NCBI RefSeq assembly: GCF_003967035.1
Contig: NZ_AP018560.1
Location: forward strand, 2,131,001-2,195,000
Direction: 5' to 3'
Length of the DNA: 64,000 bases
Origin: Aerosticca soli
GTDB taxonomy: Bacteria; Pseudomonadota; Gammaproteobacteria; Xanthomonadales; Rhodanobacteraceae
The position numbers and the translations under genes are program-made. Under the pieces are notes generated by a model that worked only from the letters and a program-made list of their open reading frames with translations, searched no databases and was not told the DNA's origin. Below, one piece after another: positions 53,145-58,506 of the stretch (position 1 is the first letter of the stretch; each line of letters opens with the position of its first letter).

Positions 53145-53465
53145 TCAGGCGCTGTCGGCCGCCTTGGCGCCACCCGATTTGGCCTCGCCCGCCGGCGCGG
53201 CGGGTGCCGGCGCGGGGGCGGGCGTCGCTGCCGGCTTGGCCTCGGCGGCGGGACTTTCGGCGAGATTGCGCTTCTTGTCGCCGTCCTTCTTGAAATCGGT
53301 TTCGTACCAGCCGCTGCCGGCCAGCCGGAACGCGGCCGCGCTGACCCGTCGCCGCACGCGCGGCGCGCCGCACTGCGGGCAGCATTCGGGATCGGGGTCG
53401 GCCATCTTCTGCAGACGATCGAAACGATGGCCGCAGGCGGTGCATTCGAACTCGTAGATCGGCAT
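53145..53465 (-). CDS. FmdB-family zinc-ribbon protein
   Basis: 106 residues. MPIYEFECTACGHRFDRLQK with ECCPQCG gives two CxxC-type pairs, the FmdB zinc ribbon. A long Ala/Pro/Lys-rich low-complexity tail starts near residue 70. Function unknown; the family was linked to putative regulation of formamidase. It is commonly found before aspS in gammaproteobacteria, as here (111 nt). Confidence 0.9.
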   Translation of the reverse strand: MPIYEFECTACGHRFDRLQKMADPDPECCPQCGAPRVRRRVSAAAFRLAGSGWYETDFKKDGDKKRNLAESPAAEAKPAATPAPAPAPAAPAGEAKSGGAKAADSA

Positions 53466-53574: not shown

Positions 53575-53598
53575 AGGCATTTGGATGTCCAGACGTCT
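53575..53598 (+). promoter_or_regulatory. Three tandem MetJ-like operator 8-mers
   Basis: Contiguous 8-mers AGGCATTT, GGATGTCC, AGACGTCT end 1 nt before the -35 of the next promoter. The third matches the MetJ half-site consensus AGACGTCT exactly; the first two match five of eight. The tandem layout resembles the E. coli metA operator. That MetJ or another regulator binds here is inferred. Confidence 0.55.
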
Positions 53599-53599
53599 A

Positions 53600-53628
53600 T
53601 TGACCGCAGGGCAGGCAGGTCCTAGGCT
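53600..53628 (+). promoter_or_regulatory. Candidate promoter of the TonB receptor gene at 53672
   Basis: TTGACC (53600-53605), 17 nt, TAGGCT (53623-53628). The -35 matches five of six. The -10 is weaker (three of six). It directly follows the MetJ-like boxes and lies about 44 nt before the ATG. Confidence 0.6.
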
Positions 53629-53671: not shown

Positions 53672-56125
53672 ATGTCTTCGCATACCGCCCGCCATCGTCG
53701 CGTACTCGTGCCCACGGCCCTGTGCCTGGCCCTGGGGTCCGCCCTGGCCCAGGCCCAGGATGCCGGCCAGACGAACACCACCGCCACGCCCGAGAAGGCC
53801 AAGGAACTCAGCACGGTGATCGTCACCGGCACGCGCACCGCCAACCGCACGGTTGACAGCTCGCTGACGCCGATCGACGTGGTCTCCGGCAAGGATCTGC
53901 AGCAGATGGGCACCAGCGAGCTGCCCACCGCGCTGGCGCGCCTGATTCCCTCGCTCAATTTCCCGCGCCCTTCGGTGGCGGACACCGCCGACTCGCAGCG
54001 GCCGGCCCAGCTGCGCGGTCTGTCGCCCGACCAGGTGCTCGTGCTGGTCAACGGCAAGCGCTGGCACCCGGGCGCGCTGCTCCTGACCAACGGCGTGCTC
54101 GGCCGCGGCTCGCAGGCGGTGGACCTCAACACCATCCCGATCGCGGCCGTCGACCACATCGAGGTGCTGCGCGACGGCGCCTCCGCGCAATACGGTTCCG
54201 ATGCGATCGCCGGCGTGATCAACATCATCCTGAAGCAGGGCGCCAAGCAGGGCGACGTCGAGGTCACCGGCGGTCAGTACACCCACGGTGATGGCCGGCA
54301 GTGGCAGGGCTCGGCCAATTTCGGCATCCCCTTGAATGGCGACAAGGGCTGGCTGCGCTTCACCCTGCAAAGCGGCAACCAGGACCACACCAACCATGCC
54401 GGCGTTGACAGTCGCCCGGCCTACAGCAGCTATGGCGTGCGCTACCGGCAGGGCGATCCGGACGTGCATGACAACAACCTGCTGCTCAACGCGCAGTACG
54501 ACTTCACCCCGGACGTGCAGTTCTACGCCTTCGGCCATTTCGGTCGTCGCCAGAGCACCTCCCCAGCCTTCTTCCGCTACGGCAACAGCAGTCCGCTGAT
54601 CGCGAACATCTACCCTGACGGCTATCTGCCGCTCGAGCATGGCGATTCCACCGACCGCTCACTGGTGCTCGGCCTGCGCGGCACCTGGGACGGCTGGCGC
54701 TGGGACGTGAGCGGCAACTACGGCGGCAACCGGGTGTCCTACGAAACCCGCAACAGCGTCAACCTGGCCTGGCTCAAGGACTTCGGCTCGAGTCCGCGCA
54801 GATTTGACGATGGCATCCTGCACGACGATCAGGAAGCCTTCGACGTGGATCTGGCCAAGGATTTCACGCCGAACTGGCTGCCCAGCCCGCTCACCGTGGC
54901 CTTCGGCGCCGAATACCTGCGCCAGAGCTACGGCATCGATGCCGGCGAGCCGGCGTCCTGGTATGTCGGCACTTCCGGTACGGCCGGCGGCGCACAGGGT
55001 TTTGCCGGCTGGCAGCCGATCAGCGCCGGTTCCTGGTCACGGCACGACGTGGCCGAGTACGTGAGCCTCGAGACCAACCTCACCGACCGTCTCGGCGTCT
55101 CGCTGGCCGGCCGGCACGAGGATTACACCGACTTCGGCACCACCACCTCGGGCGCGCTGGCCGGGCGCTTCGACTTCACCTCGCGCTTTGCCCTGCGTGC
55201 CAGCGCCTCCACCGGTTTCCGCGCGCCCTCCCTCGCCCAGCAGCACTATTCGTCGGTGTCGTCCTACTACTACGGTGCCGGCAATTCCCTGGGCCTGCCG
55301 GCGGGTATCTACAATTCCGGCCTCCAGCCGGTGGACAACCAAGTTGCCCGCCTGCTCGGCGCGCAGCCGCTCAAACCGGAGAAGTCGCACAACTACACCG
55401 TGGGCATGGTGTGGAACCCGACCGACCCGCTCACCCTGAGCGTCGATCTCTACAAGATCACCATCGGCAACCGCATCGTACTGTCGAGTTCGCTGCCTAC
55501 CACCAACCCCGCGGTGCGCTCCTATCTCGCCGCCAACGGCATCGACAACCTCAACTACAGCGGCATCTCCTATTTCACCAATGCCGCCGACACGCGTACC
55601 CGCGGCATCGACATCGTCGCGACCTATCTCAGCGACTTCGGCAATGCCGGCACGCTGCAGACCACCTTCAGCGCGAACTACAACAAGAACGAGGTGACCA
55701 AGGTCAAGCCCAATCCGGCCGTACTCGATGCGCTCGGTGTCAACTTCAAGCGTCTGGACCGGCGCGATATCAAGGGCCTGCTCGCCGACAGCGCGCCGCG
55801 CATGAAGCTGATCCTCAACGAGCAGTACACCGTCGGTCGCTGGAACCTGTCGGGCACCCTGACCCGCTATGGCCGCTACACCTCCTACAGCCAGACCAAC
55901 CCGCTCTACGACCAGGTGTTCAGCCCCAAATGGGTGCTCGATCTGGCCGCCAATTACAACGTCGACCGTTGGACCTTCACCTTGGGTGTGGACAACGCGA
56001 CCGACACCTACCCGGACAAGAACATCCCCGCCAACAGAAACAACGGCACCCTGCCCTATTCCACGTTCTCGCCCTTCGGCTACAACGGCGCCTATGTGTA
56101 CGGCAAGGTTCGCTACAGCTGGTGA
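53672..56125 (+). CDS. TonB-dependent outer-membrane receptor
   Basis: 817 residues. Signal peptide about 1-29 (VLVPTALCLALGSALAQAQ). TonB box-like STVIVTGTRT near residue 47. Plug domain includes LRGLSPDQVLVLVNGKRWHP and DGASAQYGSDAIAGVINIIL. Barrel ends YGKVRYSW with the terminal aromatic required for outer-membrane insertion. Start chosen at ATG 53672 with AAGGGG upstream. Substrate not readable. The MetJ-like operator upstream and the btuB gene converging from the other side suggest methionine, cobalamin or a metal complex as candidates. No STN domain, so it is a transporter rather than a transducer. Confidence 0.92.
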   Translation: MSSHTARHRRVLVPTALCLALGSALAQAQDAGQTNTTATPEKAKELSTVIVTGTRTANRTVDSSLTPIDVVSGKDLQQMGTSELPTALARLIPSLNFPRPSVADTADSQRPAQLRGLSPDQVLVLVNGKRWHPGALLLTNGVLGRGSQAVDLNTIPIAAVDHIEVLRDGASAQYGSDAIAGVINIILKQGAKQGDVEVTGGQYTHGDGRQWQGSANFGIPLNGDKGWLRFTLQSGNQDHTNHAGVDSRPAYSSYGVRYRQGDPDVHDNNLLLNAQYDFTPDVQFYAFGHFGRRQSTSPAFFRYGNSSPLIANIYPDGYLPLEHGDSTDRSLVLGLRGTWDGWRWDVSGNYGGNRVSYETRNSVNLAWLKDFGSSPRRFDDGILHDDQEAFDVDLAKDFTPNWLPSPLTVAFGAEYLRQSYGIDAGEPASWYVGTSGTAGGAQGFAGWQPISAGSWSRHDVAEYVSLETNLTDRLGVSLAGRHEDYTDFGTTTSGALAGRFDFTSRFALRASASTGFRAPSLAQQHYSSVSSYYYGAGNSLGLPAGIYNSGLQPVDNQVARLLGAQPLKPEKSHNYTVGMVWNPTDPLTLSVDLYKITIGNRIVLSSSLPTTNPAVRSYLAANGIDNLNYSGISYFTNAADTRTRGIDIVATYLSDFGNAGTLQTTFSANYNKNEVTKVKPNPAVLDALGVNFKRLDRRDIKGLLADSAPRMKLILNEQYTVGRWNLSGTLTRYGRYTSYSQTNPLYDQVFSPKWVLDLAANYNVDRWTFTLGVDNATDTYPDKNIPANRNNGTLPYSTFSPFGYNGAYVYGKVRYSW

Positions 56126-56195: not shown

Positions 56196-58115
56196 TCAAC
56201 GGGCCGGCTGCCAGCGCAGGCTGAGCATGAAGTTGCGGCCCGGCTGGTTGTAGTACCAGGCCGTCTCGTAGCGCTTGTCGAAGACGTTGTTGAGAGCAAG
56301 CTGCAGCTTCCAGTCCCGATCGACCATCCAGGCCAGCCGCAGGTCGGTGAGCGCATAGCCGCCGAGCCGATGCAGGTTGGCGGCATCGTCGTAACGGTAG
56401 CCGGAGACGAACCAGCTGGCACCCGCACTGAAGGCGCCGAACGGGCGATCGAGATCCAGCCGGGCGGTCTGCCGTGCACGGCGCGGCAGCAGGTTGCCGT
56501 CCTCGCCCGTATGCGAGCGATCGCGCGGATCGAGCCAGCTGGCGCTGGCGTTGACCGTCCAGCCGGCGATGCGCGTGCCCACGGTCGCCTCGGCGCCGCG
56601 GATGCGCGCGCGATCGATGTTGTTCGGCCCGCCATAGGGATGTTCTGCGTCGACCAGCGCGGTGTCGTAGGCGATTAGATCGCTCACCACGTTGCGGTAG
56701 ATGTTGACCGACCACCAGCCCCAGCCGGGCGTACCGCGCACGCCGAATTCGAGGTTGCGCGAGCGCTCGGGCTTCAGGCGGGCATTGCCGTAATAGGGGT
56801 AGTAGAGCTCGTTGAAGCTCGGCGCCCTGAAGGCGCTGCCGTAGCTGGCGGTCACCCGCAGGTCGCGAACGATATCCCATCCCCACAGCAGGCTGCCGGT
56901 GTTCTTGCCGCCGAACTGGCCGTCCTCGTCGCGGCGCACACTGGCCTGCAGCGACTGCGTGCCGAAGCGTTGCTGCCACTGCGCAAACAGGCCGCGGTCG
57001 ATGCGGCGATCCACGGCGAAATCGCTGCTGCTGGCCAACTTGTCGCGCTGCCAGTCGAAACCGGCGCTGTAGAGGCCTTCGCCCAGCGAAAGATCGGCCT
57101 GCACGGTGCCGAGCGTGCGCCGGGTATCGAAATGGTCGACCGGACGGCCATCGAGGTAGTCCTCGGCCAGGTCCATGGTTTCACCCAAACCCAGGCTCAC
57201 ATCCAGGTTGGACAGGGCCTGCCAGCGCAGCTTGCCGCCGGCCACCTGCGAGGTATCGTCCGCCGCATTGGCCACGCTGCCGTCGTATTCGTTGTGGCCC
57301 TCGGCACGGAAAAACTGCACGTCGCCATCCAGCGTGGGCGTGAAGCGGTAACCGCCGCGCAGGGTGATCGCGTTGTTGCGATAGCCGTCGCGGTCCGGCT
57401 GATCGACATAACAGCCGGCGAAAGCTTCCGCTGCGCCGAGTCGGCAGGCATTGATGCCATGCGTGTTGTCGTGGCTGGCTTCCAGCGCGTACCAGCCGTC
57501 GCCGACCTTGCCGCCCACTCCCGCCGAGGCGGCCGCGTGATGATCGCTGCCGAAGCCCAGCATCAGATTGGGATTGAAATCGCCCTGCGGCTGGCGGGTG
57601 AAGATCTGCACCACGCCGCCGATCGCCTCCGAACCATACAGACTGGAAAATGGCCCGCGCACGATCTCGATGCGCTCGATCTGCTCGAGCGGAATGTCCT
57701 GGATGGCCGCGGCGCCGTTGGTGGCCGCGCCGAGTTTGAATCCATCGACCAGCACCAGCACGTGGTCGGAAGCCGTGCCGCGCAGGAACATCGAGGTCAG
57801 TTTGCCGGGGCCGCCGTTGTTGGCCAGCTGCATGCCGGGAGTGCCGCGCAGGAGGTCCATCAACGAGGCCGGCTGCAGACGCTCGATGTCCGCGCGGTCG
57901 ATCACGGTGACGGCGGCCAGGGTCTGGTCCTGGGTCTGCGCCGTGCGCGTGGCGGTGACCACGACGCCGGTTAGATCGGTGGCGTCGTCCGAGGTCGCGG
58001 CCGTGGCGTCGTCCGAGGTCGCGGCCCACGCGCCGCCTGAAAACGAAGCCGCAAGCGCACCCGTCAGGGCGGCGGTCAAGGCGCGGCGATGCAACGATTT
58101 TCCATTCACGAGCAT
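56196..58115 (-). CDS. btuB: Vitamin B12 outer-membrane transporter BtuB
   Basis: 639 residues. TonB-dependent importer of cobalamin. Signal peptide about 1-31 (ALTGALAASFSGGAWA). TonB box TGVVVTATRT near residue 50, plug with LVLVDGFKLGAATNGA and ERIEIVRGPFSSLYGSEAIG, barrel ending NFMLSLRWQPAR. An extended MLVNGK start has GGGAG 12 nt upstream. The cobalamin riboswitch upstream fixes the substrate class. Near the mature N-terminus the motif ATSDDATA occurs twice (see tandem repeat). Confidence 0.93.
   Translation of the reverse strand: MLVNGKSLHRRALTAALTGALAASFSGGAWAATSDDATAATSDDATDLTGVVVTATRTAQTQDQTLAAVTVIDRADIERLQPASLMDLLRGTPGMQLANNGGPGKLTSMFLRGTASDHVLVLVDGFKLGAATNGAAAIQDIPLEQIERIEIVRGPFSSLYGSEAIGGVVQIFTRQPQGDFNPNLMLGFGSDHHAAASAGVGGKVGDGWYALEASHDNTHGINACRLGAAEAFAGCYVDQPDRDGYRNNAITLRGGYRFTPTLDGDVQFFRAEGHNEYDGSVANAADDTSQVAGGKLRWQALSNLDVSLGLGETMDLAEDYLDGRPVDHFDTRRTLGTVQADLSLGEGLYSAGFDWQRDKLASSSDFAVDRRIDRGLFAQWQQRFGTQSLQASVRRDEDGQFGGKNTGSLLWGWDIVRDLRVTASYGSAFRAPSFNELYYPYYGNARLKPERSRNLEFGVRGTPGWGWWSVNIYRNVVSDLIAYDTALVDAEHPYGGPNNIDRARIRGAEATVGTRIAGWTVNASASWLDPRDRSHTGEDGNLLPRRARQTARLDLDRPFGAFSAGASWFVSGYRYDDAANLHRLGGYALTDLRLAWMVDRDWKLQLALNNVFDKRYETAWYYNQPGRNFMLSLRWQPAR
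57979..58026 (-). repeat. 24-bp tandem duplication in btuB
   Basis: Two perfect direct copies of a 24-bp unit (57979-58002 and 58003-58026) encode two ATSDDATA-like blocks in the linker between signal peptide and TonB box. The in-frame length of 24 avoids a frameshift. It looks like replication slippage in an unstructured region. Confidence 0.85.
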
Positions 58116-58224: not shown

Positions 58225-58415
58225 ATGCCGGGTCTTGCCGCGGGGCCGGTCTCCGGGCTCGCGAGCGAGGTTCCATCGAACCTCCCGATCCGCGCCTTCC
58301 CATGCCAAAGCACAGTGGCCTGATGCGGAACGTCTGCTCGCCTACCGTTGCGGGGGCAGCTCCGGCATGGCCTGCGCAAGGGCAGGCGGCACCGGATTCC
58401 CGTTTCAACCGCACC
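58225..58415 (-). ncRNA. Cobalamin (B12) riboswitch
   Basis: In the minus direction are the class I landmarks: a GGTTGAAACGGGAATCCGGTGC start, GCCCCCGCAACGGTA, GCCACTG, and the B12 box GAGCCCGGAGACCGGCC. Their order and spacing match the AdoCbl riboswitch aptamer. It controls btuB, lowering its expression when cobalamin is abundant. Confidence 0.93.
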
Positions 58416-58506
58416 GACGAACGTCGGCGCGGTCACCTCGAGGCGCGCGCAGTGTAGCAGGCCGTCTTGCCGTGCGGCGCCGCAAAAAACGGCTCCGCAC
58501 GGGGCT

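Follow-up and report, generated by a model that had tools for sequence, protein, structure and literature searches.

Background

The closest described relatives of the arrangement considered here come from two surveys of MetJ regulons. According to the available text of Augustus and Spicer 2011 (PMC3228920), MetJ homologs are confined to five orders, and btuB was newly listed as a MetJ target; in that text, the only mention of TonB concerns btuB orthologs. The MetJ-controlled btuB of Yersinia, as presented in the accessible part of that survey (PMC3228920), resembles the present case in having met boxes on a gene for a TonB-dependent receptor but differs from it in that the receptor studied here is of another family, is without a riboswitch and belongs to a host outside the five orders. 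The position of the boxes differs as well: they lie at the transcription start in the MetJ-controlled btuB described in the available text (PMC3228920), whereas in our case they abut the -35 hexamer. The second survey, Leyn 2014 (PMC4239095), dealt with six gammaproteobacterial groups; for the 4 Xanthomonadales genomes studied, its accessible portion reports SamR and not MetJ. As far as that portion goes, the MetJ regulon delineated there shares with the present one the core targets metB and metJ, metX (in Pasteurellales) and the tandem 8-bp boxes; the word TonB is absent from the main text of that paper, whereas here a receptor appears as a predicted MetJ target.

In the available parts of these two surveys (PMC3228920, PMC4239095), MetJ is unreported in Rhodanobacteraceae. 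It has already been named in print in this family, since a 2025 paper on a Rhodanobacter community (PMC12146267) refers, in its accessible text, to the MetJ of member R12 as a putative methionine-synthesis repressor. Prediction of the nutrient of a receptor from its regulon membership has a precedent in the HutC and HypR amino-acid regulons (PMC5343134, accessible text), from which the present case differs in both regulator and nutrient; the TonB content of the available text of that paper concerns HypR, HutC and NagR. In the literature as searched, mostly outside subscription papers, we found no report of a MetJ-controlled TonB receptor of the present type and no paper on a predicted uptake of methionine by a TonB-dependent route through the outer membrane. 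To our knowledge, no TonB receptor for sulfur amino acids has been established.

Another kind of system to be kept in mind is the polycysteine leader ORF of mycobacteria, where a Cys cluster ends a short ORF located before a gene. Short ORFs with a Cys cluster are likewise found upstream of Luteibacter-branch homologs of our receptor, with the difference that here they occur only in homologs outside the window (the whole 64-kb stretch of DNA analysed) and are combined with MetJ boxes.

The receptor gene and its promoter region

The relevant features of the window are, by position and strand:

53145..53465, minus strand: divergent FmdB-type zinc-ribbon gene (PF09723)
53575..53582, plus strand: possible weak third box AGGCATTT, doubtful and unconserved
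53583..53598, plus strand: predicted MetJ operator of two adjacent met boxes, GGATGTCC (53583-53590) and AGACGTCT (53591-53598); 13/16 to consensus, position kept in orthologs
53600..53628, plus strand: promoter TTGACC (53600-53605)-N17-TAGGCT (53623-53628), assigned from the sequence; layout common to orthologs and metX promoters
53672..56125, plus strand: TonB-dependent outer-membrane receptor, 817 aa; Pfam PF07715 (Plug) and PF00593 (barrel)
56196..58115, minus strand: btuB, the convergent neighbour of the receptor gene (TIGR01779, 711 bits)
58227..58455, minus strand: cobalamin riboswitch of btuB (RF00174, 97.7 bits)

The receptor carries both the Plug and the beta-barrel domain that define TonB-dependent receptors, and no NCBIfam model scores above its cut-off on it; in particular, it reaches 92.9 bits with the BtuB model TIGR01779, against a cut-off of 599.7, and is not a BtuB by this measure. 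Its nearest named relatives are receptors of Fulvimonas soli (81% identity) and Dyella (71-73%), which is our ground for assigning the family to Rhodanobacteraceae. The AlphaFold model of the protein is poor, with a mean pLDDT of 54.5.

The sequence-only reading had placed three contiguous 8-mers one base before the promoter TTGACC-N17-TAGGCT. Two of these boxes and the promoter proved to be correctly placed, a single A (53599) separating the operator from the -35 hexamer TTGACC. The supposed third box, AGGCATTT, is weak and was rejected, the 8-mer at this position being unconserved in the orthologs; its score level is reached by 1.8% of the 8-mers of the window on our own box score, which was fixed after the first sites in the same genome had been seen. 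When up to 3 mismatches are allowed, the operator site itself is the single match of AGACGTCTAGACGTCT in the 64 kb; it departs from the consensus at 3 of 16 positions. Such a pair is expected 0.11 times in the window and turned up at least once in 10 of 100 shuffles; on the window alone, chance suffices to account for it, and these numbers are what a fortuitous match without function would have in its favour.

The promoter is absent from the list returned by a scan for the sigma-70 consensus (TAGGCT agrees with TATAAT at 3 of 6 positions); we accept it because it is conserved in the orthologs and not on account of that scan. With transcription expected to start at about 53635 and the ATG at 53672, the leader would be some 37 nt long, which is too short for a riboswitch.

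MetJ and its predicted targets

The assignment to MetJ requires, first of all, that the genome encodes this protein, and absence of metJ had been named beforehand as a finding that would speak against it. The gene is present: the 2.87 Mb one-contig genome contains a single MetJ match, at G000:C1:239391-239645, which scores 132 bits with PF01340 (cut-off 25) and 134.3 with the NCBIfam MetJ model (cut-off 110). The protein aligns with Escherichia coli MetJ (1cma) across 77 residues and has kept both DERTRRQVNNLRHATNS and ITVSIP, which we take to be the DNA-binding strand. All 37 genomes searched within the family encode MetJ, as do 2 of the 24 genomes from the rest of the order; of these 39 genes, 30 were read. 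In all 30 loci (L024:2880-3389 in G000:C1, and L066-L094), the E. coli-like core is followed by a C-terminal, histone-H1-like tail rich in Lys and Ala; the K+A fraction of the tail is 0.63-0.83 in 29 loci, and L092, considered separately, is also tailed.

A box pair, GGACGTCTAGACGTCC, is located 175 nt upstream of metJ itself. Among the 29 family loci that could be parsed, the best pair within 350 nt upstream of metJ lies at -166 to -183 in 28 (in L085, it is at -126) and scores at least 27 in 21. Within the genome as a whole, 22 sites were obtained with up to 3 mismatches, as compared to 6 for the control. Those that could be tied to a downstream gene precede metX-metB, metJ, a gene for an aspartate kinase/diaminopimelate decarboxylase fusion, purH and the receptor of the window, so that recurrence of the motif before met genes, the second expectation attached to the original proposal, is borne out at metX-metB and metJ. 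Many of the 22 sites fall within coding sequence or between convergent genes and were excluded as targets; these, and a site between same-direction serC-pheA-like genes, may be due to chance. The site at 829667 was wrongly taken for a metL operator, the gene being the aspartate kinase/diaminopimelate decarboxylase fusion. No box was detected at metH (in an operon that starts with an ArsR-type gene), at btuB or at the receptor paralogs of this genome (864287 and 1385237). The pair at purH, GGACGTCCAGACGTCT, is about 70 nt upstream of the gene (G000:C1:144633; L026:2134). A box precedes a metQ-like gene (215.2 bits, cut-off 228.9) in G007, which we take to be F. soli.

Across genomes, the 16-mer with up to 2 mismatches yielded 139 matches, against 18 for a reversed control, in the 37 metJ-bearing genomes of the family, whereas in 22 metJ-less genomes there were 2 matches against 23. 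Two metJ-bearing genomes of another family (f12) gave 32 matches against 3; this family was dropped as clean support because in one of them, G047, several of the 16 sites adjoin transposase-type genes and repeats. In the same genome, metB- and metY-like genes, so named from their sequence and not from a model, are also boxed. The occurrence of Met-box-like sequences close to genes of transposase type in this second metJ-bearing family (G047: L216, L219, L221), which belongs to the same order, is recorded here in its own right, as is a MetJ-box pair that lies, in three genera, between small lipoprotein-like genes and convergent genes next to an apparent terminator hairpin (L148, L159 and L239, in G002, G021 and G020, respectively).

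These data bear on the identity of the regulator. MetJ binding at the receptor is deduced from sequence, and the motif might in principle be used by a different protein; we consider this very improbable, given that the motif tracks metJ across genomes and precedes metX-metB and metJ, and that the ITVSIP segment of MetJ is kept.

The receptor and metX share the geometry of the promoter region. The strict layout ACGTCT-R-TTGAC-N17/18-TA occurs at 48 sites in 147 genomes of the family, against 4 for the reversed control, and these sites are distributed over 47 of the 147 genomes. The 30 sites for which the loci were read comprise 27 metX genes with a SAM-I-like leader, 2 receptors of the window type (the present one and that of G007) and 1 unnamed locus. 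In 17 SAM-I-like (metX) promoters, which were mostly fetched through the box pattern itself, the best pair is 1 nt upstream of TTGAC in 13 and 9 nt upstream, with one extra box in between, in 4. The metX-metB operon of the present genome (G000:C1:270470-270634; L027:1971-2135) combines MetJ boxes with a SAM-I riboswitch (77.8 bits), i.e. two SAM sensors in series.

Conservation of the predicted operator at receptor orthologs

A box pair is present 1-4 nt upstream of TTGAC in 11 of 14 receptor orthologs (the present one included), counted as the best match per genome at no less than 59% identity. The gap between box and TTGAC is 1 nt in 8 of the 11 boxed orthologs, 2 nt in 2 and 4 nt in 1. This count leaves aside second copies (L164, L165, L179), L100, which is cut by a contig end, and L095, which has the same box as L037 and was taken as the same genome. 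The boxed orthologs other than our own are 64-81% identical to it in protein, and their surrounding sequence differs. The unboxed orthologs of the clade, L046 and L047 (of the same genus) and L049, come from genomes in which metJ is present; in the second copies, also at least 59% identical, a clear pair is lacking at the promoter. A degenerate pair, GGACGTCTATACCGCT, occupies the same place in four named Dyella loci. The box stays with the receptor also in loci that yielded no divergent FmdB start, namely, L048 and, with a weak pair, Dyella L096 and L098.

In a quick receptor tree of 42 rows, a branch with support 98 sets off 28 rows, among them all that were scored as boxed; 25 of the 28 are boxed or weakly boxed. 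The tree omits L112 (16 stops in the frame taken), L095, L100, L109-L111 and L113, as well as L164-L183, represented by upstream pieces only, and one stop in L052 was entered as X. Outside the tree, a pair of borderline score (27.5) was noted 158 nt upstream of the match in L168 (52% identity).

The chance match raised by the statistics of the window can be reconsidered in this light. It would have to account for boxes in 11 of 14 orthologs at a near-constant distance from the promoter, within differing flanks and before proteins that have diverged to 64-81% identity, and we find it hardly credible. Those hallmarks of a MetJ regulon that can be read from sequence are present together: MetJ is encoded, adjacent 8-bp boxes lie near the promoter, operators precede metX-metB and metJ, and the arrangement is conserved in relatives. 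Hence the proposal of MetJ-type control of the receptor gains support from the presence of metJ and from the motif before met genes, and, on the strength of sequence comparison, the site at the receptor gene is very probably a MetJ-SAM operator and a part of the Rhodanobacteraceae MetJ regulon.

Cys-cluster leader ORFs in the Luteibacter branch

More distant homologs of the receptor, at about 51-55% identity, are found in the Luteibacter branch. As judged by eye, their boxes are located just 3' of a TTGACA-type promoter; they are 226-399 nt upstream of the receptor match. In 9 of 9 loci of this branch (L050, L052, L101-L107), a short leader ORF comes after the boxes and ends in a Cys cluster, defined as 3 or more Cys within 4 codons. 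The clusters vary (CCC, CCCC, CCCCC, CLCC, CCRC), with TGT and TGC codons mixed. When each region was subjected to 300 simple shuffles, 4 to 11 of these matched the cluster, and among 47 other upstream regions, an in-frame CCC is found in 2 (L166, a paralog in G032, and L183). A Cys-cluster leader ORF is also present in L051, a locus that stands apart in the tree and has its box before the promoter; there, the leader ORF is followed by a strong hairpin (-21.7 kcal/mol) and a T run, a combination seen in this locus only. A Cys-responsive attenuator would be expected to pair such an ORF with an alternative terminator. A terminator scan of L051 and L104 returned none on the strand of the receptor gene. 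In L166, the Cys-cluster leader ORF occurs without MetJ boxes. In L. yeojuensis, some 1.4 kb separate the receptor from an ArsR-type gene, after which comes metH.

The candidate cargo

MetJ control by itself is compatible with several kinds of cargo. We favour a sulfur or methionine-type compound because the receptor appears to belong to the MetJ regulon and because the sister branch has Cys leaders; we would give this assignment an even chance of being right.

Another reading, along the lines of the sequence-only proposal, accepts MetJ control but has the receptor supply MetH with a corrinoid (a compound of the B12 type) or with cobalt. The genome encodes MetH (419 bits), and no MetE was found in it with the domain model PF01717, so that methionine synthesis is probably B12-dependent; moreover, tests in other bacteria, e.g. 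Yersinia, have identified btuB as a target of MetJ, according to the available text of PMC3228920, and in the window it adjoins the receptor gene. The sequence-only reading had regarded this neighbourhood as fitting a theme that links B12 and methionine. The neighbour is there, with its riboswitch; the adjacency is not kept, F. soli and four Dyella loci having no btuB next to the receptor. The next gene in convergent orientation encodes, in F. soli, a siderophore-type receptor (243.4 bits, cut-off 223.5); the receptor of Dyella L096 is followed by a DksA-like gene. Among the five loci L095-L099, no Rfam family reaches its threshold, the cobalamin riboswitch included. We have, accordingly, discounted the B12 link through btuB. 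The score far under the BtuB cut-off, the fact that the genome already has a btuB with a riboswitch of its own, and the Cys-rich leaders of the Luteibacter branch, which have no obvious corrinoid link and for which a sulfur nutrient is the more natural counterpart, likewise weigh against a corrinoid, and we regard this cargo as unlikely.

Slightly less probable still, in our estimate, is that the receptor takes up a metal (zinc, copper) or a chelate, its MetJ control being coupled to metal-dependent enzymes of methionine synthesis and the Cys leaders serving as metal sensors. Metals are a frequent cargo of TonB receptors, the best-scoring solved relatives of our receptor by sequence are siderophore receptors, Cys clusters are capable of binding metals, and upstream ORFs of copper-controlled genes reportedly act as metal sensors. 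However, the variable make-up of the Cys clusters suits a response to codon supply at least as well, and the expected leader of the receptor gene in the window is too small for a leader ORF.

A possible mechanism and its implications

With a sulfur or methionine-related cargo as the favoured reading, the following mechanism can be envisaged. When SAM is plentiful, SAM-bound MetJ dimers would sit side by side on both boxes, at approximately -52 to -37 relative to where transcription is expected to begin; placed directly against the -35 hexamer, MetJ would keep RNA polymerase off the promoter. When methionine and SAM are low, the receptor would be made in step with MetX-MetB and would import a sulfur or methionine-related compound. 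We infer the binding of MetJ, the SAM signal in vivo, the cargo and the sign of the response, repression rather than activation; the repressive step, in particular, is modelled on the known mechanism of MetJ, and activators, too, sit upstream of -35 hexamers.

A more far-reaching possibility, which we put forward tentatively and hold to be somewhat less probable than the assignment of the cargo class, is that the whole receptor clade consists of dedicated TonB importers of methionine or other organosulfur compounds, which would be switched by SAM through the tailed MetJ in one branch and by MetJ together with a Cys-reading leader in another. If this is true, the gate in the outer membrane would be equipped with a double sensor of sulfur supply. 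Apart from this possibility, MetJ control provides an orphan clade of TonB receptors with a testable physiological signal and a cargo class; the MetJ regulon gains a predicted target of this kind, a host family outside the five orders of the 2011 survey and a form of MetJ with a tail in all 30 loci read.
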